From: a bacterium
GTDB taxonomy: Bacteria; Electryoneota; RPQS01
Assembly (NCBI GenBank): GCA_028711875.1
Contig: JAQTRJ010000016.1
Coordinates: 1 to 14,602, forward strand
DNA length: 14,602 nucleotides
Reading direction: 5' to 3'
Part shown: positions 1 to 14,602 of the stretch, in pieces
Layout: the number at the start of each line of letters is the position of its first letter
Position numbering within the stretch: the first letter of the stretch is position 1
The notes under the pieces: generated by a model
What the model was told of the DNA's origin: nothing
Database searches by the model: none
Seen by the model: the letters and a program-made list of their open reading frames with translations, nothing else
Position numbers and translations under genes: made by a program

Positions 1-915
1 GTGGAAACCGATGCCAATGACATGAGAGGGATTCAGCACCGGATGATAGAGAAAGGCATAGTCAATGACCAGTTCCCGCCAGTGCAGGCCGAAACCGGCG
101 GTGAAGCTGTTGGGATTCGTGTTGATTCCGAAACGCAAGTCAAGCGGTTTGACCACCATGGCGTTCACGCCGCCCTTGAACTGGGTCTCACCGCTGATGA
201 CGCGCTCCACGTCGAACGTCGTGCGCACGCCATAATAGGGGAAGTAGCTCACGCCCGCCGAAAGCATACGCGGCAAATCGCGCTTTGAACCTTCGCCCAT
301 CTGCGGGTGATTGGCGTTCTTAAACGATCCTCCGAGCCGGAACCGATCCCACAGCTGCGCGGTGGCGCCGATGTCCAAGCCGAAGGTGGAGGCGCTGCCG
401 AGATCCATGGAAGGCTGATCGTCATAGCCTACCGATTGGCCGAGGTTCCATGAGATCAGCTTCGCCGTGTAGCCGAAGGCCAGCGACGTGTGGAGGTCGT
501 GCTGAAGCAGAATGCCGTGCGACAGAAACACTTCGGTTTCGGAGGACATCGTATGGCCGCCTTCGCGCGTGCCGAGAGTCTGAATGCCCGCGGCAATCCC
601 ACCCGCCTTTCCCGGCAGTTGCGAAAAGCCGGCCGCGGACATGTGGGAAAGGAAATTCAGTCCCCAGGGCTGGTGGTACACGAAGCGGCCTTCGGTTCCT
701 TCGCCATACGCCAGTCCGGCCGGATTCCAATAGGGCGCTTCCGCGCCTTCGGCCGCCGCCGTATAGGCTCCCCCCACCGCCAATGCCGCCGGAACCGGCG
801 GATTGGGATTGGAGATCAGTTGCGCTGAGGCGAGAGGAACCATCGCCAACAGCAGGATGGAAACGATCACATATCTCACGATCGCCTCACGGGACAAGAG
901 AAAATATCTGCGCAT
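1..915 (-). CDS. PorV/PorQ-like (UPF0164-type) outer-membrane beta-barrel protein, C-terminus off the window
   Basis: Reading leftward from the ATG at 915-913, the frame stays open for 305 codons to the window edge without a stop. The N-terminus has a basic stretch (MRRYFLLSREAIVR) and a hydrophobic core ending ASAQL, a signal peptide. Next come a GGAYTAAAEGAEAPYWNPAG motif, typical of the PorV/PorQ/UPF0164 family, and alternating Gly/aromatic beta-strand sequence (e.g. TSLAFGYTAKLISWN, FGLDIGATAQLWDRF), as expected for an outer-membrane barrel. Family members act in FCB bacteria as T9SS components (PorV shuttles cargo to the attachment complex), but many paralogues have unknown roles. The start overlaps the stop of the upstream secreted-protein gene by one base (TGATG), so translation is probably coupled. 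A GTG at 879-877 with a nearby GAGG is an alternative start. Family assignment is fairly sure; the exact role is inference. The 3' end is missing. Confidence 0.8.
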   Translation of the reverse strand, partial: MRRYFLLSREAIVRYVIVSILLLAMVPLASAQLISNPNPPVPAALAVGGAYTAAAEGAEAPYWNPAGLAYGEGTEGRFVYHQPWGLNFLSHMSAAGFSQLPGKAGGIAAGIQTLGTREGGHTMSSETEVFLSHGILLQHDLHTSLAFGYTAKLISWNLGQSVGYDDQPSMDLGSASTFGLDIGATAQLWDRFRLGGSFKNANHPQMGEGSKRDLPRMLSAGVSYFPYYGVRTTFDVERVISGETQFKGGVNAMVVKPLDLRFGINTNPNSFTAGFGLHWRELVIDYAFLYHPVLNPSHVIGIGFH

Positions 916-3809
916 CAGAGTTTCGTTCCAATCACGACGGGTTTCACGATGGTGTCGCTGGTGCCGTCCTGCACGGATTCGAGATGCAGGATATAGGTTC
1001 CCAGCGGCAGGATATTGCGAAGTTCATCCCGGCCGTCCCACCACAGTTCGTTCGGTCCGCCGGCATTCTTGTCTAACAAGGTTGTGACAAGATGTCCGCG
1101 GAGATTGAAGACACGGAGCCGCACGGCGCCCAGCGTAGGTGAGCTGTAGACGATATGAAGCTTCTGGCCGAGATCGGGGGCAAAGGGGCGGTTGGGGACA
1201 TCCAGACGGAGTTCGTCGGACGGCACGGGCTGATCGGGAAGAGTGAAGTCTTCCGCGTACCCACCCAGCATCTGAAAATCGCCGTCATAGGCGGACGTCA
1301 CTCCGGCCACGCTGCACAACACGCCCACCAGATCGCCTTTGCGATAGGTCCGGTCGCCGAGCACGACGGTTGTCAATCCCATGTCGTCCCAGACGCGAAT
1401 GGTTACGTTGCCGCTGCCGTCGTCAATCATGATGTTCGTTCCGCCGCCGACGTTTTCGTCCACCTGATAGATCGTGCCCGTAACCTGAACCCACGTTCCC
1501 GAACCATAGTTGCCCGACGACGACGTCACAATGAGACTTTGCTGAGTCGTGCGGTCGCCGGTAGCCAGACGAATCGGCTCGGGTAAGGGTTGATTCTCGC
1601 CTAAGACGAAGATGTCGGTATTCGGGGTGCCGTTGAAACTCTGGAGTTGAACCGCTCCGGCATAGCTGCTGGCAATTCCGGTAATCGTAATGAGATTGCC
1701 GCGCTGAATGCCGGGGAAGCTCGCCGCCGCGCCGGTCTGCGAAAGATAGAATCCGAGACCGCTGTTGTCCTGCAGATAGGCGGAAATTCGCCGCGATCCG
1801 CTGGTGGTTGTCACATCCTGTACGAAAGTGACGACGCCGCGCAGCGTCACACTGCGACCGTTATAGGCGTCGAAATCGCGGTAGATGTCGGCGATTTGAA
1901 CGTATTCTTCCGGCTCATATCCGGCGAAACTGACTACGGCTCCCGTCAGAACGTTGCCGCTGACATCCTGGACATCTCCGACTGTGAGCTGGTAGGCATG
2001 GCCGGGAAGCAGCCGCTCGAGAGTCGTGAGCTGAATCGTGCGGCCGTCACGGTAGAGATAGGCGGTCAGCACGTGCAGCTCCAGCAGGTCGGTCTGATCC
2101 ACCAGATGGTAGTTGGCAAGATCGGAGATTCCCACCGTATCCAGCCGTTCATTGAAGAGCACATTGAAAGCGGTGTCGCTGACGGCCGTCGCGCTGGTCA
2201 GTTGCGGAGCGCGGTGGTCAATGTAGCGAATATCGTCGTCGGAACGCGGGGCAAGTTCCCAGCCGTGCCCGCTGTAGTAGCTGACGCAGCCGGTGATCGA
2301 AGTAAAGGTGTCGCCGACCGCCGGAACGTACTCGAAAGAAATATCTTTCACCACATAGGCTGAGCCGGTTTCGTTCGCGATGCGAAAAGCGGGATATTGG
2401 GTCGGCCAGTCGGTGATGCTGGTTACCCAGCAGGTGCCGACCCGGATCAGGCAGCCTTCGTAGGCTTCGGAAGAATCGGCCAGCTCGCCCACGCGAACGT
2501 CAATCGGTTCCGGAACAACCGCCTGCTGCCCTAACAGAGTGACGACGTTTCCGCCGGTATATTCGGTGAGGCCGCTGTATTCCACCACTTGTCCGGTTAC
2601 GCTGACGCAATCGCCCAGCGCCGGATCAATCGAACCGCCATAGACAAAGATTCCCGACCACCTGCCGCCTTCCGGGGCCAGGCTGACGGGATCGCTCATA
2701 TAGAAATCGCTGCCATTGCCGAATGCCGCGCCCGTGACAATTCCCGTGACGGTCACGAGCGAATCGGCGAAGGGGGAATTGCCGCCGGTAGGATTCCCGG
2801 TGTATTGAATATCGTAGATGGCACGAATGGAAGAGAGAATCAAATAGGCGTGGGTGCTCGCTGGAGCAGCGGCGGGGCTGGTGGCGGAGGCGCCCTCTGT
2901 ATCCTCGGCCCAGAGATAGTAGTAGCAGGTCGTGCGCGCGGGTCCGGCGGGAATGACGCCGCCCCAGCGACCGTCCCCAGCGGCTCCATCGTGGTGCTGG
3001 CCATCATCATACATCGGGCGCGCGGTGAAGTCTCCCTCCAATCCGAAACGATAGTAGAGGACGGCGCTTCCGACACCCTCATCATCGGTAAGAACCACCG
3101 TGACGGTATCGGACTGCAATTCGTTCGGCCGCTCGGGCGTGTTGGCGATCTCGGAGAAAAGAGGCGGGCGATTGCCGACAAAACCGAAATCACCGTCTCC
3201 GCGCGGATTCAGCGTGTAGACGCTGCCCGAGGCGGTGACGATGCCGCGCAGGTAGCGTAAAACTTCTCCCACCAGCGGTTCGTGGGCATACGTCCAGCCG
3301 CTTCCCACGGTGAGCGGGCCGCTGCCGTCATCGACGGTGAACTGTCCGGATCCCACGCTGACCACGGTGGCATCGGTCAGTTCGATCAGGACACCCTCGG
3401 CCGACTCGCCGACTTCGCCGGAGGCGATCAAATGGGGAGCCGCGGGCGCGACCGGCGTGCCTGTGGAAAATGCACCGGTAACGCTGATCCGCAACCGAGT
3501 CTCCGAACTTGTCTCCCGGACTTCGGCTTCGAACCGAATCGAATCTCCAATGGATAAGCCACGGTCCTGTGCATCATTGACCTGAATCCCGTGCCAAAGC
3601 CCGCCCTCGGGATCGGAAATGAAGTAGTAGGTTGGCAATCGGTAAGCCACAGCCGTGACGACTCCCCCGGTAGTCACCGTTTGACCGACCAAAGGAGAAT
3701 TGCCGGAGGCGTCCTCGGTGAACTGGATGTCGCGGATTGAGACGTCTTGCGCAAAAACGCAAGATGCTGATAATATGATAGATAGCCAAAAAATGATGCG
3801 GTGTATCAT
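915..3809 (-). CDS. large secreted multi-domain protein with OB-fold repeats, Ig-like domains and FlgD-like C-terminal domain
   Basis: I chose the ATG at 3809 because it gives a clean signal peptide (MIHRIIFWLSIILSASCVFAQ) and lies downstream of a predicted promoter. An ATG six bases upstream (3815) is equally possible. The frame is open back to a TTG at 3893, but those starts would precede the predicted transcription start. The protein is about 964 aa. Numbering from the start used here, there are OB-fold-like segments at about 22-210 (NSPLVGQTVTTGGVVTAV), 330-530 (NSPFADSLVTVTGIVTGA), 640-735 (SVTLRGVVTFVQD) and 760-855. They resemble accessory domains found beside extracellular nucleases. 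An Ig-like segment with DDGQHHDGAAGDGRWGG (about 268-282) and a Big_5-type segment (about 535-630, VLFNERLD) lie between them. The end (about 870-964) is a FlgD/T9SS-type Ig fold with VRLRVFNLRGHLVTTL and PLGTYILHL. No nuclease or other catalytic motif is visible. It is likely exported and surface-attached; its ligand is unknown. It is transcribed ahead of, and coupled to, the PorV-like gene. Confidence 0.8.
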   Translation of the reverse strand: MIHRIIFWLSIILSASCVFAQDVSIRDIQFTEDASGNSPLVGQTVTTGGVVTAVAYRLPTYYFISDPEGGLWHGIQVNDAQDRGLSIGDSIRFEAEVRETSSETRLRISVTGAFSTGTPVAPAAPHLIASGEVGESAEGVLIELTDATVVSVGSGQFTVDDGSGPLTVGSGWTYAHEPLVGEVLRYLRGIVTASGSVYTLNPRGDGDFGFVGNRPPLFSEIANTPERPNELQSDTVTVVLTDDEGVGSAVLYYRFGLEGDFTARPMYDDGQHHDGAAGDGRWGGVIPAGPARTTCYYYLWAEDTEGASATSPAAAPASTHAYLILSSIRAIYDIQYTGNPTGGNSPFADSLVTVTGIVTGAAFGNGSDFYMSDPVSLAPEGGRWSGIFVYGGSIDPALGDCVSVTGQVVEYSGLTEYTGGNVVTLLGQQAVVPEPIDVRVGELADSSEAYEGCLIRVGTCWVTSITDWPTQYPAFRIANETGSAYVVKDISFEYVPAVGDTFTSITGCVSYYSGHGWELAPRSDDDIRYIDHRAPQLTSATAVSDTAFNVLFNERLDTVGISDLANYHLVDQTDLLELHVLTAYLYRDGRTIQLTTLERLLPGHAYQLTVGDVQDVSGNVLTGAVVSFAGYEPEEYVQIADIYRDFDAYNGRSVTLRGVVTFVQDVTTTSGSRRISAYLQDNSGLGFYLSQTGAAASFPGIQRGNLITITGIASSYAGAVQLQSFNGTPNTDIFVLGENQPLPEPIRLATGDRTTQQSLIVTSSSGNYGSGTWVQVTGTIYQVDENVGGGTNIMIDDGSGNVTIRVWDDMGLTTVVLGDRTYRKGDLVGVLCSVAGVTSAYDGDFQMLGGYAEDFTLPDQPVPSDELRLDVPNRPFAPDLGQKLHIVYSSPTLGAVRLRVFNLRGHLVTTLLDKNAGGPNELWWDGRDELRNILPLGTYILHLESVQDGTSDTIVKPVVIGTKL

Positions 3810-3864
3810 GAGCATCGAAAGGATGGACAGCGGGTTTTTTCCGTCATGTGATTTCAGGGATATC

Positions 3865-3893
3865 ATTATAGCTATTCCCATCGTGAAATACAA
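3865..3893 (-). promoter_or_regulatory. predicted promoter for the OB-fold protein/PorV-like pair
   Basis: On the minus strand a perfect -10 hexamer TATAAT (3870-3865) lies 17 bases from TTGTAT (3893-3888), which matches only TTG of the sigma70 -35 consensus. The predicted transcript would begin near 3858, giving a leader of about 45 nt before the ATGs at 3815 and 3809. This supports those starts over the TTG, ATG and ATG further upstream. No Shine-Dalgarno sequence is evident in the leader. The promoter sits in the 161-base divergent gap. FCB sigma factors can prefer other consensus sequences, so this is a prediction only. Confidence 0.45.
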
Positions 3894-3970: not shown

Positions 3971-6184
3971 ATGCGCGTGAGTTGCAGGTTAGTCCTGTCT
4001 TTCCAGCGGCTGATAATGACGGCATGGGCGATCATGGCGCTGGTGACGTTGCAGCCCTGTACGTCGCAGCCGCTGTCCGATGATTCCACGCGGTTCGCCG
4101 GCTATTGGGAACTTGTGGAGGCGGGCGACACGACGGGAGCCGGAGAATACCTGCTGAGTCTGACCGACGCCCGCCAGGGGCGCACGTCTCCCCTGGCGGG
4201 TTTTCTGCTGGGATGGCTGGCCTATCAGCGCGAGGACTATGCGGGGGTGGAGGTTCAACTTGGGCTGGGTGTCCCGCCCGAGCTTACCGATCATGCGCTA
4301 TTTTTACGGGCCGATGCCCTCGAGCGGCTCGGTCAGGCCGAGCGGGCCGCTTCGCTGTGGGAGGAGCTTGCGCGGGATACCTCATCGGTGTATATGCCCG
4401 AGGCGCTGTTTCGGCTGGCGGAATGGGCGCGGGCGACCGGGAATACGAGTGAGTTTCTTGATTGGGCGGCCAAGCATAGAAATCGCTCAACGAACACGGA
4501 GAATCGCCAGCAATTGGACTTGATGGCGGCGGAGATTCTGGCGTCGCAGAATCGGCACGCTGAATCCGTGGATATCCTCTATAACGCTGTGCTGGCGGGA
4601 CCGGCCACGGAGGCTGCCGAGAAGATTCGCCAACGAATCCATGAATACCCAAAGCGTTTTCACGTCACTCCGCGTCGTTTGACCGCGGAGGAAATTCATA
4701 GGGAACTCGACGCCTTGGAAAGCACCCGCTCGTTCCAGAGCGGCCTGCATCGCGTTCACGAATGGATGCAGAGTCCTCAGGGCGGCGATCTCAGCGAGCG
4801 GCTGACGTATTTTCAAGCGCGGTTTGAGAACGGATTGGGACGACACCGGAAAGCCGTGGAAAGCTTCCGGAACTATCTCCGGAGATTTCCCGACGGGCCG
4901 TTCCGCGGCCGGGCGTTGTACTATCTCGGGCGCTCTGCTTATTTTACCGATCAGGATTCCATCGCCATCGGCGCGCTTGCTGAAGCGGCCGATGGCACGG
5001 ACGATTTAATTCTGGCGCAGCAGGCGCTGGAGCTGCTCGGACTTCTGTATCTGGAACGGGGACGACCTGGGGAGGCCGAAGCGGTGTTTCGTCGCTGGGA
5101 GACGCTTAGCCGCGGTTCGGACAGTGAGCTTGATTGCCTGTGGCGGCTGGGATGGGCGCAGTGGGAGGGCGCGTCGTTCGAGGGTGCGGCGGAAACTTGG
5201 CGGCGGTTGTTCGAACAGGATTCCATGTCCGCCTACGCGCCGATTGCTCTCTATTGGCAGAGTCGCGCCAGCCAGAGGATGGGACGCGCCGAACAGGCCG
5301 AGGAACGGCGTCAATCGCTGCGTTTCCGTTTCCCCTATTCCTATTACACCGTGACGGAATTCGGTACGGCAGGCGACATCGCAGCGCAGGAAGTGCCGCT
5401 GACAGCCCCCACGCTCGACGCATTGTGGCTCGCGGGCGGCCAGCACGCCAAACGCTTCTGTCTGCTGGCCGCCATGCGGCTGCCGCGGCTCGCTCTCGAA
5501 GAGTGGCCGGCGATGAGGCGAGAGGTGTCGTCGGCGGATGGGCTGGCCTGGTGGGAGGCGCAGCTGCATATCTGGAACGGAAACCGCCGCGCGGCGATGC
5601 GCGTCATCCGACGGGACCTGGCCGTCTATATCGCGACGGCAGGCCAGCGGCCGAGCGGATTCTATTCTACGCTCTATCCGCTCGATTTCGATCCCAAGAT
5701 CATTCAGCAGGCGGCGCAATACGACATAGATCCCTATTTTCTCTTCGCGCTGATCTGTCAGGAAAGTCACTTCGATCCGAGTGCAATCAGTCCGGCGGGG
5801 GCGATTGGCCTGATGCAATTGATGCCCGAGACGGCCCGGATCGAAGCCCGCGAGCAGGGGATTTCCTATTCGGCGCAGCTTCTTGCGGATCCCGACTACA
5901 ATCTGAAACTCGGGATCGCCCACGTGGCCAGGCTCTGGCAGCTCTATTCCGGAGACCCCGTATTAACGCTGGCCGCCTACAACGCCGGAAAGAACAAAGC
6001 GAACGAATGGCAGGCGAAATTCCCGGCGCGGGACCGCGACGAATTCATTGAACTCATTCCCTACCGCGAGACGCGCATGTTCATCAAACGCATTCTCGAG
6101 CATCGCGCGGCCTACCGGAGACTGTATCCCGACGTCGGATCATCGCTGATCGCCACACCGACGCCATCCAAAACCACCGAGTAA
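3971..6184 (+). CDS. soluble lytic transglycosylase, Slt-like (GH23), with helical/TPR N-terminal region
   Basis: This 737-aa protein begins with a signal sequence (hydrophobic MTAWAIMALVTLQP after a basic start). A long alpha-helical, TPR-like solenoid follows (about residues 40-560; e.g. GRPGEAEAVFRRWETLSRG, SAYAPIALYWQSRASQRMG). It ends in an SLT domain (about 580-705). The domain shows QESHFDPSAISPAGAIGLMQ with catalytic Glu598, GLMQ at 613-616 and AAYNAG at 668-673, all hallmarks of family 1 lytic transglycosylases. These enzymes cleave the MurNAc-GlcNAc bond of peptidoglycan in the periplasm, leaving 1,6-anhydro-muropeptides. Its length is that of a large Slt70-like enzyme. In the start frame a stop at 3950-3952 prevents extension. 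The ATG at 4016 is an alternative start that would still leave a signal peptide; neither has a good ribosome site. LQPC near residue 30 is not a convincing lipobox. It is the first gene of the plus-strand cluster; selD starts one base after its stop. Confidence 0.93.
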   Translation: MRVSCRLVLSFQRLIMTAWAIMALVTLQPCTSQPLSDDSTRFAGYWELVEAGDTTGAGEYLLSLTDARQGRTSPLAGFLLGWLAYQREDYAGVEVQLGLGVPPELTDHALFLRADALERLGQAERAASLWEELARDTSSVYMPEALFRLAEWARATGNTSEFLDWAAKHRNRSTNTENRQQLDLMAAEILASQNRHAESVDILYNAVLAGPATEAAEKIRQRIHEYPKRFHVTPRRLTAEEIHRELDALESTRSFQSGLHRVHEWMQSPQGGDLSERLTYFQARFENGLGRHRKAVESFRNYLRRFPDGPFRGRALYYLGRSAYFTDQDSIAIGALAEAADGTDDLILAQQALELLGLLYLERGRPGEAEAVFRRWETLSRGSDSELDCLWRLGWAQWEGASFEGAAETWRRLFEQDSMSAYAPIALYWQSRASQRMGRAEQAEERRQSLRFRFPYSYYTVTEFGTAGDIAAQEVPLTAPTLDALWLAGGQHAKRFCLLAAMRLPRLALEEWPAMRREVSSADGLAWWEAQLHIWNGNRRAAMRVIRRDLAVYIATAGQRPSGFYSTLYPLDFDPKIIQQAAQYDIDPYFLFALICQESHFDPSAISPAGAIGLMQLMPETARIEAREQGISYSAQLLADPDYNLKLGIAHVARLWQLYSGDPVLTLAAYNAGKNKANEWQAKFPARDRDEFIELIPYRETRMFIKRILEHRAAYRRLYPDVGSSLIATPTPSKTTE

Positions 6185-6185
6185 C

Positions 6186-7235
6186 ATGGCGTACACCAAG
6201 GACGAACTGACGAAACTCACGCATCTGGTTCGCTGCGCGGGTTGAGCCGGCAAGATGGATCCAGCGGAGCTGGATCGCATTCTCAGCGGATTGCCCGCCG
6301 TCAGCGACCCAAACGTGCTGGTCGGATACTCGGGACGCGACGACGCGACGGTGTACCGTTTGCCCTCGGGCGAGCAGATCGTGCAAACGGTGGACTTCTT
6401 CACGCCCGTGGTGGACGATCCTTACGACTACGGTTCGATCGCGGCGGCTAACTCGCTTAGCGATGTGTACGCGATGAACGCGCGGCCGCTGTTTGCCCTG
6501 AATATCTGCTGCTTTCCGCGCAAACATTCCTTCGAACTCTGGCGGGAAGTGTTGCGCGGCGGCGGCGACAAAGCCGCCGAAGCCGGGATCGCGATTGTCG
6601 GTGGACACACCGTGGATGACAGTGAACCGAAATATGGCCTGGTCGTGACCGGACTGGTTGATCCCGGCGCGATTTGGGTCAACGAGGGAGCCAAACCGGG
6701 CGATGCGCTGTTGCTCACCAAACCGATCGGTACCGGACTGATCACCACCGCGCTGAAAAACGAACTCGTTTCCGCCGCGGAGGTCGCGGAGGCAATCGGG
6801 GCGATGAAGACGCTCAACCGCACCGCCGCGGACGTGCTGCGCGGCTTCGATGTTCATGCCTGCACAGACATCACGGGCAACGGCCTGATCGGACACGCCT
6901 CGGAAATGATGGAGGCGTCGAGAGTCGGGCTGGAGCTCCATGCCGCGGACATTCCCTTGTTCTCGCTGGCGCGCGATCTGGCGGAGGGCGGCAAGTTTCC
7001 CGGCGGGACGTTCGCCAACCGAGGCTATTACGAGCGGCTCGTGGACTTGGATTCGTCTGTGCCCGAGAGTCTGAGCTGGCTGCTCTTCGATGCCCAAACG
7101 TCGGGCGGTCTGCTCGCGGCGGTGGCTGGCTCGCAGGCAGAAACCGCGCTGGCTGAACTACGGCGCGCGGGCGTAACGGCGGCGGCGCTGATCGGCTGGG
7201 TTGTGGCCGACGAGCGGATGCGGATTGTCAAGTAA
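6186..7235 (+). CDS. selD: selenophosphate synthetase SelD, selenocysteine-containing (in-frame TGA = Sec20)
   Basis: SelD makes selenophosphate from selenide and ATP, the selenium donor for Sec-tRNA and 2-selenouridine synthesis. Read from the ATG at 6186, the frame begins MAYTKDELTKLTHLVRCAG, reaches TGA at codon 20, then continues AGKMDPAELDRIL without another stop to 7235. With the TGA read as Sec the protein is 349 aa, a normal SelD length. Sec20 and Lys23 align with catalytic Cys17 and Lys20 of E. coli SelD. Other family motifs are GRDDATVY (Asp52/53), TVDFFTPVVDDPYDYG (68-83), AANSLSDVYAM (Asp93), GGHTVDDSEPKYGL (139-152) and CTDITGNGL (Asp229), covering the Mg/ATP-binding residues. 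Starting instead at the ATG at 6255 would remove the catalytic residue and Lys23. Cys17 forms an unusual CAGU motif. The gene starts one base after the transglycosylase stop (TAAcATG), so translation is probably coupled. No selA, selB or selC is nearby. Confidence 0.95.
6246..6295 (+). promoter_or_regulatory. candidate bacterial SECIS element for the selD UGA
   Basis: Immediately after the TGA (6243-6245), GATCCAGC (6258-6265) and GCTGGATC (6269-6276) form a perfect 8-bp stem around a GGA loop (6266-6268). The stem extends by GATG (6254-6257) pairing with CATT (6278-6281; one G-U pair, G6277 bulged). GGCAA (6249-6253) can pair with TTGCC (6291-6295) as a lower stem across an asymmetric loop. 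The upper stem begins 12 nt after the UGA and the G-containing loop lies about 20 nt after it, close to the geometry of E. coli fdhF-type SECIS hairpins recognised by SelB. It lies inside the coding sequence, as bacterial SECIS elements do. The fold was drawn by eye. Confidence 0.75.
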
Positions 7236-7297: not shown

Positions 7298-8284
7298 GTG
7301 ACACCCATTCGGTTGGCTGTGGTGGGAGCGACGGGATTGGTCGGGAGAACGACGCTCGATATTCTTGAAGAGTGGAATGTCCCTCTCGAATCTCTGCGAC
7401 TCTTCGCGTCGGAGGAGTCCCGCGGAAAAAGCGTGCCGTTTCGCGGACGCAAGATCGCTGTCGAAAGGCTGGAACGCGTTCCCGACGGCGTGAATGCCGC
7501 GATTCTGGCGACTTCGCGGGCGATTTCGCGGCGCTGGGTGCCCGCGTTTCGCGAGTGCGGCGTCACAGTGATTGACCACTCGTCGGAATTCCGAATGCAC
7601 GCGGACGTTCCGCTGGTGATTCCGGAAGTGAACGGACACACGCTGCGGGATCACCGAGGAGCCGTCGCCAATCCGAATTGTTCAGCCAGCATTGTGGTCA
7701 TTCCGCTGGCGGCGCTGGCTCGCATCGCGGAGATGAAAACCGCTGTGGTGGATACCTATCAATCAGTATCGGGATCAGGACAGGACGCGCTCGCTGAATT
7801 CGAGAATGAGCTGGCCGATGCGTCGTACTCACCGCGCGTCTTTCCGCGCGTCATCGCTCACAACGTCTTTCCGCAGATCGGAGTCTTCAACGACGTCGGT
7901 CCATGTGATGAAGAGCAGAAAGTCGTGCAGGAATTGCAAAAAATGCTCGAGCTGCCGCAGCTTCATATACTGACGACGACGGTGCGGGTGCCGGTGCGGA
8001 TTGGTCATTCGGCGGCGCTCAGTGTGGAATTGGCGCGCGACGTGCGGATTGATGAAGCGGAAGCGGCGCTGTCCGCCATGCCGGGGATGGTCTACGAACG
8101 GACGACCTATCGCACGCCGCGGGAAATTGCCGGGCGGCAGGAAGTGTTCGTAAGCCGTTTGCGAAAAAGTCCGCACGATCCACACTGGCTGCAGTTTTGG
8201 GTGACAGGGGACAACCTTCGGAAAGGCGCTGCCTCAAATGCCGTGCAGATTCTCATGGAATTGTTCGGAGTGATGATGCCGTGA
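7298..8284 (+). CDS. asd: aspartate-semialdehyde dehydrogenase
   Basis: Asd reduces L-aspartyl-4-phosphate with NADPH to aspartate semialdehyde, the branch point to lysine/diaminopimelate, threonine and methionine; diaminopimelate also feeds peptidoglycan. The 328-aa protein has an N-terminal nucleotide-binding GATGLVG (10-16) and the catalytic ANPNCS with Cys128. It also has YQSVSGSG with Gln155 (the substrate-orienting Gln of the family), and RVPVRIGHSAALSVE with Arg230 and the active-site His237. The C-terminal DNLRKGAASNAVQI matches the family end. Length is near the usual 330-340. It starts with GTG behind a GAGGAG site. Its TGA stop overlaps the GTG start of the next gene (GTGA), so the downstream secreted protein is probably translated by coupling to asd. 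I see no attenuator or lysine riboswitch before it; the upstream gap is too short for one. Confidence 0.95.
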   Translation: MTPIRLAVVGATGLVGRTTLDILEEWNVPLESLRLFASEESRGKSVPFRGRKIAVERLERVPDGVNAAILATSRAISRRWVPAFRECGVTVIDHSSEFRMHADVPLVIPEVNGHTLRDHRGAVANPNCSASIVVIPLAALARIAEMKTAVVDTYQSVSGSGQDALAEFENELADASYSPRVFPRVIAHNVFPQIGVFNDVGPCDEEQKVVQELQKMLELPQLHILTTTVRVPVRIGHSAALSVELARDVRIDEAEAALSAMPGMVYERTTYRTPREIAGRQEVFVSRLRKSPHDPHWLQFWVTGDNLRKGAASNAVQILMELFGVMMP

Positions 8285-11944: not shown

Positions 11945-12540
11945 GCCGATGTCTCCGATCCGGTCCAGCGATTCTCGATCATTTCGACGAGTAAATGCCC
12001 GCAGAAGAGGTGAGCTTCCTGCACGTGCTGCGGGGATGGCGATGGAATATGCACCGCCAGATCAAGCAGGGGATCGAGTTCAGACGTCGCCCGACCGAGC
12101 AGACCGATGGTTCGCCCCTGGCGTGCGCGCGCAGACCGGGCGGCTTCAATCAGATTGGCGGACTTTCCCGACGTGGAGAGCAGGAACAGCACGTCGCCTT
12201 CCTTCATCAGCGCATCCACCTGCCGCGCAAACACGAGATCAAAACCAAAGTCATTTGAGCAGGCCGTAAGCAGACTCGTATCGGTGGTCAGAGCCAGCGC
12301 CGGCAGCGCTCCCCGATCGCGATCGGAGGTCAGGCGGACGACGAACTCAGTCGCCAGGTGCTGGCATTCGGCCGCCGAGCCGCCATTGCCGCAAAACAGC
12401 AGCTTGCCGCCCCGGCGCAGAGCATTGGAGCAAAGGTTCGCGGCGTCGGACAGTTGCTTCTGAATCACTGGCAGTCGTTCCATGAGTTCGCGGGATTCCG
12501 CGCAGGCCGCTTCGAACATCCGACGATCGGATTCGCTCAT
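11941..12540 (-). CDS. gmhA: phosphoheptose isomerase (sedoheptulose-7-phosphate isomerase)
   Basis: GmhA converts sedoheptulose 7-phosphate to D-glycero-D-manno-heptose 7-phosphate, the first step of ADP-heptose synthesis for LPS core or surface glycans. I chose ATG 12540. It has GGGGAG seven bases upstream (minus-strand 12553-12548), overlaps the RND stop as ATGA, and gives 199 aa, the usual length. The frame extends upstream to 12675, but those 45 residues overlap the RND gene and look non-protein-like. This SIS-domain protein shows [16 protein letters not shown] (51-66) with His61 and Glu65, matching the E. coli metal/catalytic positions. It also shows [25 protein letters not shown] (122-127, sugar-phosphate loop) and QEAHLFCGH with Gln174 and His182. 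All expected active-site residues are present. The rest of the heptose pathway (hldE, gmhB) is not in the window. A related SIS-domain function such as DiaA is less likely given the complete residue set. Confidence 0.92.
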
Positions 12541-14602
12541 ACGGTCGCTCCCCGAGCGGCTTTTTTCTCGGCTCGACTTTCGATGTATTCGTAAACCGCC
12601 GGCACAAAGAACAAGGTCAGGACGGTGCTTGAGATCAGCGCTCCGATGGATGCGATGGCCATCGGCGCGCGCCACTCGGCGCCGGAGCCGATTCCGAATG
12701 CCAGCGGGGCCATGCCCAGAATCGTCGCCAGATTGGTCATCAGAATCGGACGGAAACGTCCGGGAGCCGCGATCAGCGTCGCTTCGCGAGCGCTCTTCCC
12801 CTGTTCGCGAAAAACATGGGCGTAATCAAGGATCAGAATTGCGTTGTTGACCACGATCCCAACCAGCATGACCATGCCCATGAGCACCATCATCGAGACC
12901 GCCGTATCGGTGAGAACCAGTATCAGCGCGACGCCGATCAGCCCCAGGGGCAGCGTCAGCATGATGATGAGCGGGCGAATATAGCTGTTCAGCATGGCGC
13001 ACAGGAGCATGTACGTCAGAATGGACGCGAGGAGCATCGCCTGATAAATGTAGCCGAACTCGCGTCCCATGAATTCGGCTTCGCCGCCGAATATCACGGA
13101 CACCTCGGCAGGAATGGCCAGACTGTCCAGACGCGGCTGAATGTACTTCTGTGCGTCGGAGATCGTCCCGCTGGTCAGATTGGCGGACACGGTGACGAGA
13201 CGTTCCTTGTTTTTCCGGTCAATGGTGGTCGGTCCGGCGGCTTCGGAAATGGACGCGACCGATGTGAGCGGAATCCACGAGTTATTGCTGCGCACTTCCA
13301 AAGACCGAACCTGCTCCAGCTTCGAACGATCGCTCTCGGCCAGGCGAACGCGGACGTCGTACTCCTTGCCGGATTCGCGGTACGTCGTGGCTATCGTGCC
13401 CTCGAACAGCGCGCGCAGCGTGGTGGCGATTCCGGAGGCGTGGAAGCCCTGATCGGCCAGCGCTTCGCGTTTGGGAATCACCTTGAGTTCGGGCTTGCCG
13501 GTGATCCAGCTGTTTGTCACGTCCACCGCTCCCGGCGTTTGGGCGGTGATGGCTTGAACCTGATCCACCACGCGCAGCAGTTCGGCCATGTCGTTGCCTG
13601 TGACCTCGATCTGCATATCGCTCTCGCCGCCGCCTCCGAACTCCGACGTTTTCGTGATAACGATATCGGCGGCCGGAATTTCGGCAATGTGATTGCGCAG
13701 ATCAGCCGTGATCTGGTCGGTGGAACGCTGACGCTCCTTTTTATCGTTCAGCTTCACATAAATGCCGCCCAATTGCGATCCGTAGGAGTCCCCATGACCG
13801 ACCTGAGCAATCCCGATGGTGGTATAATACGACACGACTTCCGGGATGCGGGAGATTTGATCCTCCATAAGGCTCATAGCCTGATCGGTCACGTCCAATC
13901 GGGTTCCCGGAGGCATTTTCACCGAGACGTAGAACTCGCCCTGATCCGCCTGCGGGAAGAATTCGCCACCTACCACTCCGAAGAGACCGAGCGAGACAAT
14001 AAAGATAACGGCTACTCCGCCGATGATGCGAGCGCGGTGATCGAGAATCCAATTCAGGGACTTGCCATAGCTCTCGATGGCCGCGTTCATCAGCCGGTCG
14101 AACCAGCGAAAGAAACGGACGAGCATTCCCAGTCGCTCGGCCAGTACAAGCGCCCCCACAAACAGGATCGTCATGACGGCCTGAGTCAAGCCGACAATCA
14201 GCCACACTCCGGCGAATACGGCGACGGCCGCGAAGAGATACATGCTGCGGCGCATTTTCGTGGCGGACATCATCGGCGTGAGCGTAAACGAGACGATGAG
14301 CGAGAACACCGTGGCGAAGGCGACCGTGAGGCCGAATTCCTTGAAAAATTGTCCCACGATGCCGCCCATGAAGCCGATCGGCAGAAACACGACAATGTTG
14401 GTGAGAGTCGAGGCGGCCACCGCCAGCGCAATTTCCGACGTGCCCTTGGCGGCAGCCTCGCGTGGCGCGAAGCCGCGGTTCCGATAATTGGTGATGTTTT
14501 CCAGCACCACGATGGCGTTGTTCACCAGAATGCCGATCGAGATCGAGAGGCCCATCAGTGTCATCGAATTCAGCGTGAATCCCGCCCAGTAAATGAGCAG
14601 GA
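12537..14602 (-). CDS. RND-family efflux transporter permease (HAE-1/AcrB-like), N-terminal part off the window
   Basis: The visible 687 residues correspond to AcrB from just before TM4 to the C-terminus; about 390 N-terminal residues lie beyond the right edge. Numbering here is from the Met at 14564, with 12 more codons ([12 protein letters not shown]) open to the edge. TM4 ([20 protein letters not shown]), TM5 and TM6 (ending FTLTPMMSA) are followed by an extra hydrophobic hairpin (about 107-148) and by the [11 protein letters not shown] amphipathic helix and TM7. The large periplasmic porter region ([20 protein letters not shown]) and TM8-12, with [17 protein letters not shown], come next. 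Such permeases export drugs, bile acids or lipids with a membrane-fusion protein and outer-membrane channel; neither is visible. Asn-Asn replaces the TM4 Asp pair and Asn573 replaces the TM10 Lys of AcrB. The stop overlaps the gmhA start (ATGA). Confidence 0.93.

Follow-up and report, generated by a model that had tools for sequence, protein, structure and literature searches.

Selenophosphate synthetases (SelD) with selenocysteine (Sec) at the catalytic position are already known in bacteria. In the portions of Mariotti et al. (2015, PMC4561486) used here, 19% of the SelD genes that 223 reference genomes yielded are reported to carry Sec, with no variation in its position, and Sec-type bacterial selD genes are described as carrying a bacterial SECIS element; such an element is a stem-loop directly after the UGA with a G in a small apical loop, according to the part of PMC1088965 drawn on here. 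The selD gene described below lies in a 14,602-nucleotide stretch (the window) that is the whole of one contig (C367) of a metagenome-assembled genome (MAG) from an uncultured lineage. As far as that account of SPS2-Sec (PMC4561486) is used here, the gene agrees with it in the Sec position, in a predicted bacterial SECIS inside the coding region, and in the presence of machinery genes in the genome. Nothing substantive sets it apart from the known Sec-SelDs; what is particular is that the lineage is uncultured and that each of the 11 readable members of its order has the Sec type. The window gene is another member of a known group, and it leaves the known biology unchanged beyond correct annotation.

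The selD frame contains a single TGA, at codon 20, in the context TKLTHLVRCAGUAGKMDPAEL when TGA is translated as U. The read-through protein matches SelD over its whole length above curated cut-offs (361.7 bits with a cut-off of 125 for the NCBIfam model TIGR00476, and 312 bits with a cut-off of 299 for NF002098) and is homologous over nearly its whole length to the SelDs of Escherichia coli (3u0o, 218.8 bits) and Aquifex (2yye, 227.1 bits). Residue 20 is aligned to the first Cys of GAGCGCK in the E. coli protein and likewise to a Cys of the Aquifex protein, so that both enzymes have Cys where the window SelD has Sec, and Lys23 is aligned to the Lys that follows the catalytic Cys in both. The catalytic Cys or Sec and the Lys of SelD are essential residues, and the pattern of a Cys or Sec with a Lys three residues on is found here as U20 and K23. 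The second Cys of the E. coli motif is replaced by Gly22 in the window SelD; among the 64 Sec-SelDs compared below, 52 have Ser or Ala there. A sequence-only reading of the window had proposed that the TGA encodes Sec at the catalytic residue, a start at the ATG at 6186, and an ORF at 6255 that would lack both Sec and Lys; all of this is confirmed, and the frame encodes a Sec-containing SelD, which by its family membership would make selenophosphate. Coordinates of the features are collected in the table.

Table. Features of the window, with positions counted from its first nucleotide
Feature	Position	Strand	Remarks
Two genes of apparent type IX secretion-associated kind	1-3893	-	
Lytic-transglycosylase-like gene, upstream of selD	3971..6184	+	Matches below curated cut-offs
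selD, selenophosphate synthetase, Sec at residue 20	6186..7235	+	349 aa; TAA stop at 7233-7235
In-frame TGA for the catalytic Sec, aligned to Cys17 of E. coli SelD	6243..6245	+	Alignment
AAG, Lys23 (E. coli Lys20), three residues past Sec	6252..6254	+	Alignment
ORF from table-11 calling, ATG start, lacking Sec20 and Lys23	6255..7235	+	326 aa; ORF list
Predicted bacterial SECIS-like hairpin	6258..6276	+	8-bp stem, GGA loop (6266-6268), 12 nt past the UGA
asd, aspartate-semialdehyde dehydrogenase, downstream of selD	7298..8284	+	
RND-type efflux transporter gene	12537-14600	-	Runs off the window end

The MAG is fragmented (2.3 Mb in 367 contigs, about 92% complete), which gives some room to the possibility that sequencing or assembly went wrong at the TGA, or that selD is decaying and has acquired a nonsense mutation, and its partial selA does change frame close to the end of a contig. 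The comparative data argue strongly the other way. The SelD protein was searched against 61 genomes, with strong places defined as those above 200 bits, and exactly one TGA is present in 42 of the 45 strong places; of the remaining three, one (G003) is truncated where its contig ends and two (G016:C475 and G039) are genes of Cys type within long frames. The position of the TGA was checked in 30 of the 45, with the TGA at codon 20 in 27, a Cys in two, and a cut gene in one. Within the order (13 genomes searched), all 11 SelDs with a readable N-terminus have TGA at codon 20, so that 10 further members share this codon with the window gene; the exceptions are the cut gene of G003 and a genome with a best SelD match of only 28.6 bits (G005). 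A wider set of 104 nonduplicate SelD loci, which includes the best 80 of 256 contig stretches and from which six duplicates were removed, has 64 with Sec, 39 with Cys, and one cut by a contig edge, counts that come from a ranked list and whose ratio is no estimate of frequency. The UGA is thus conserved with Sec/Cys pairs among homologues, as in bacterial selenoprotein families, and the Lys23 position is Lys in 103 of the 103 SelDs read.

The codons upstream of the TGA also behave as protein-coding sequence, with differences from eight family members that are mostly synonymous. Codons 1 to 19 include five identical, 11 synonymous, and three nonsynonymous codons in comparison with the same-genus genome G001 (L039), and 13, six, and none with L031; the sister-family sequence L037, the most distant of nine compared, has seven, three, and nine. 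Together, the TGA in 11 SelDs of the order, the invariant Lys23, and the synonymous changes in codons 1 to 19 exclude a sequencing error or a pseudogene for practical purposes, and with the remainder of the frame open and a hairpin with paired changes downstream of the TGA, we regard error or decay as highly improbable. Initiation at the ATG at 6255, to give a shorter Sec-free protein with a different role, is credible to the same very small degree. It has in its favor that table-11 calling produces exactly this ORF, the only one for the selD frame in the standard list, but the ORF starts one codon after Lys23, and its product would be without a residue that is kept in every SelD read. The codons that it omits are conserved as protein, and the ATG of selD is at the same place in eight other family SelDs with a readable start and in L037, although not in L040, in which the first ATG is two codons later. 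The reading retained is a full-length SelD that starts at 6186, and the truncated ORF should not be taken for an inactive enzyme.

Throughout the order, the UGA is followed directly by an RNA hairpin whose loop is GGA or GGU. The structure was derived from 22 sequences of one shared register (the order together with families f5 and f7) chosen from the 64 Sec-SelDs, and in these 22 the seven inner pairs are always present, while the outermost pair is formed in 13 and fails in nine. Over the 176 cells of the 22 chosen sequences, 94.9% are paired, compared with 15 to 46% in slid registers. Changes on both sides of a pair occur in 14 cells at three pairs (A-U to G-C in eight sequences, U-A to C-G in five, and C-G to U-A in one), a cell count reached by none of 500 shuffles. 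The pairing level and the covariation score are each likewise reached by none of 500 in this chosen set, whereas the number of doubly changed pairs is reached by 17 and that of further pair types by 433. Outside the 22, two f3 sequences do not fit the register, and the fit is partial in the remaining 40.

Folding stability is consistent with this picture and differs between the two SelD types. In the 64 Sec-SelDs, the 42 nt past codon 20 have a mean folding energy of -14.3 kcal/mol, compared with -10.2 kcal/mol for synonymous variants (Wilcoxon p of 1e-11, mean z of -1.45, with 22 of the 64 individually below 0.05); in the 39 Cys-SelDs, the same stretch gives -9.0 and -9.2 kcal/mol (p of 0.51, mean z of +0.09, two of 39 below 0.05). 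Seven further segments of 42 nt from these Sec-SelD genes, used as a control, have mean z values from +0.03 to -0.53, and three of them (offsets +153, +213, and +603) are nominally below the null, with mean z of -0.4 to -0.5. The hairpin of the window selD considered alone is not significant in comparison with synonymous variants (p of 0.087). A SECIS prediction had been proposed as a check on the gene, and the GGA loop, the 8-bp stem, the compensatory changes in the chosen relatives, and the excess stability confined to the Sec set bear it out in that the hairpin at 6258-6276 fits a bacterial SECIS and is a predicted element of this type.

Machinery for Sec decoding is present elsewhere in the MAG. 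A tRNA-Sec at G000:C120:7055-7148(-) scores 56.1 bits with the Rfam model (cut-off 47) and is called tRNA-SeC with anticodon tca by ARAGORN. A second match over the Rfam cut-off (47.1 bits) is a tRNA-Leu by ARAGORN; the Rfam model alone is therefore indecisive, because ordinary tRNAs also score over its cut-off. selB is at G000:C296:1072-2919(-), with 343.5 bits (cut-off 242.25). selA is a fragment at a contig end that covers profile positions of about 151 to 453 with 332 bits (cut-off 267.9), with a frame change (L023, near 3208-3296); the frame change and cut are probably an assembly fault, and the selA of the same-genus G001 has nearly full profile length (540.1 bits). A full Sec-decoding system had been expected from the sequence alone, and this holds for the tRNA-Sec (UCA) and selB, whereas selA is there only as a contig-end fragment above cut-off. 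That UGA is a general sense codon, read genome-wide as another amino acid such as Trp, is less probable still than the two alternatives above and is rejected, as it has only the open frame in its favor, while the tRNA-Trp has anticodon CCA beside a separate tRNA-Sec with UCA, and read-through of TGA in the family member G009 (L140) runs the selA and PEGA-like frames into their neighbors.

Of 41 genomes, 35 have a selA match over the cut-off and 34 a selB match over the cut-off. Four genomes outside the family (G013, G035, G036, and G040) are without both above cut-off and are also without a SelD match over 40 bits. G006 (88% complete) has a Sec-SelD and a UGA-containing SelW, yet no selA or selB above cut-off, and two others (G005, 80% complete; G021, 77%) have selA and no strong SelD. 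In L140 the gene order is selA, NfeD-like, slipin-like, PEGA-like, rluB-like, and selB, and similar genes adjoin selA on C18 and selB on C296 of the window's MAG; we assign the names NfeD, slipin, PEGA, and rluB by presumed likeness.

Computation shows the gene, its UGA and the conservation of that UGA, the hairpin, and the genes of the machinery, with selA only in part, and we are highly confident that selD is a selenoprotein gene in which UGA 6243 is decoded as Sec through SelB and the hairpin, with production of full-length SelD. By analogy with the known biology of the family, ribosomes would initiate at the ATG at 6186 and meet the UGA at 6243, where SelB with Sec-tRNA(Sec) would bind the hairpin and insert Sec to give the 349-residue protein. 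The Sec20/Lys23 pair would then make selenophosphate from selenide and ATP, and SelA would use it for Sec-tRNA(Sec), so that SelD would supply the decoding of its own UGA as well as that of at least one further gene, the SelW-like gene described below. A Sec-SelD needs selenophosphate for its own synthesis and may autoregulate on selenium, as the sequence-only reading has it; the portions of PMC4561486 and PMC1794560 used here make no mention of SelD autoregulation. The uncultured lineage thus very probably decodes UGA as Sec.

The neighborhood of selD was compared in L030 to L040 and L059 to L064. One nucleotide separates the stop of the upstream gene from the selD start, and there is no clear ribosome-binding site, which together suggest that selD may be translationally coupled to the upstream gene. 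The lytic-transglycosylase-like gene is upstream in all 15 loci that include the selD start (10 genomes), and in 10 of 10 order relatives in which that start can be read. asd follows selD in 11 of 16 loci (eight genomes), some of which end early, and is not found within 3 kb at L063 and L064 of the sister family. Rfam gives no family over the whole window up to an E value of 1. The transporter gene at the window end is presumably AcrB-like, and of the two genes at the other end we take one to code for a PorV-like beta barrel and one for a large protein of repeats whose C terminus is FlgD-like.

Fusions of SelD to an NADH dehydrogenase-like protein are described in the part of PMC4561486 used here; these have the SelD domain in common with the window SelD, which is unfused. 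Cys-type SelDs with a GLGCACK motif are present at 12 loci (for example L041, L042, L065, L066, L068, and L071), 11 of them in frames of at least 700 residues from stop to stop, and judged by frame length these are probably such fusions. G016 has both a long-frame Cys-type SelD and a UGA SelD.

The sequence-only reading had also anticipated other TGA-containing genes hidden from annotation, and one such gene is found. The PF10262 (SelW/Rdx) profile identifies one gene with one TGA in the MAG, at G000:C328:3205-3414(-) (L162), a second selenoprotein gene besides selD. Its product has 75 residues and a CxxU motif, its ATG is preceded by AAGGAG, and table-11 ORF calling splits it at codon 12. Table-11 gene calling thus truncates or misses at least two genes of the lineage (selD and the SelW-like gene), which would accordingly be misannotated. 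One TGA is present in all nine SelW-like matches among 11 family genomes searched, with C-x-x-U in all nine. A hairpin follows the UGA in the MAG's own gene and is not significant in the synonymous test (p of 0.11); one of the nine family hairpins is individually below 0.05, and all nine are below the null mean. CxxU SelW-like selenoproteins have long been known (Sargasso Sea selenoproteome, PMC1088965), and in the CxxU motif, the PF10262 profile, and the hairpin past the UGA we see no difference from them, as far as that source is used here.

Seven families were asked of the genome (SelD, TIGR01591, PF00384, PF00578, PF01521, PF10262, and PF02627), and further selenoproteins beyond these may be present. 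A Sec-containing formate dehydrogenase was sought with TIGR01591 and PF00384, and no TGA was found in the matches, which sit in one 447-residue frame that we take to be a NuoG fragment beside an NADH dehydrogenase subunit. There is also no TGA in the matches to AhpC-TSA (PF00578; four), Fe-S_biosyn (PF01521; one), and CMD (PF02627; two), and no further UGA gene was recognized by eye in the selA-selB cluster of L140. The selenouridine synthase mnmH/ybbB (TIGR03167) has no match in any of the 11 family genomes, which are without the selenouridine trait by this measure. According to the part of Zhang et al. (2006, PMC1794560) used here, every Sec decoder that lacks FdhA has a Sec-SelD, and most of them also show the selenouridine trait; the absence of the synthase from all 11 genomes is a small departure from "most." The small selenoproteome detected is the only unusual aspect of the system, and it is mildly so.

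It is conceivable, if doubtful, that the whole Sec apparatus is kept essentially for SelD and the SelW-like protein of 75 residues, and that the organism has no Sec formate dehydrogenase and no tRNA selenouridine, in which case the Sec trait would hang on SelW and a self-feeding SelD. Against this are the incompleteness of the MAG (about 92% complete), the restriction of the search to the seven families, and the greater number of UGA genes in the same genus. TGA is present in some AhpC-TSA, PF00384, and CMD genes of relatives, and G001 has two UGA genes of AhpC-TSA, one of PF00384, and one of CMD; those other than the CMD gene we take to be a formate dehydrogenase-like, a peroxiredoxin-like, and a thioredoxin-like gene. 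One UGA gene of G001 (L154; G001:C139:20841-21185, -) codes for a thioredoxin-like protein with a SUPAC motif and a signal-peptide-like start; its C-terminal domain presumably resembles type IX secretion sorting domains, and the product is possibly an exported selenoprotein.
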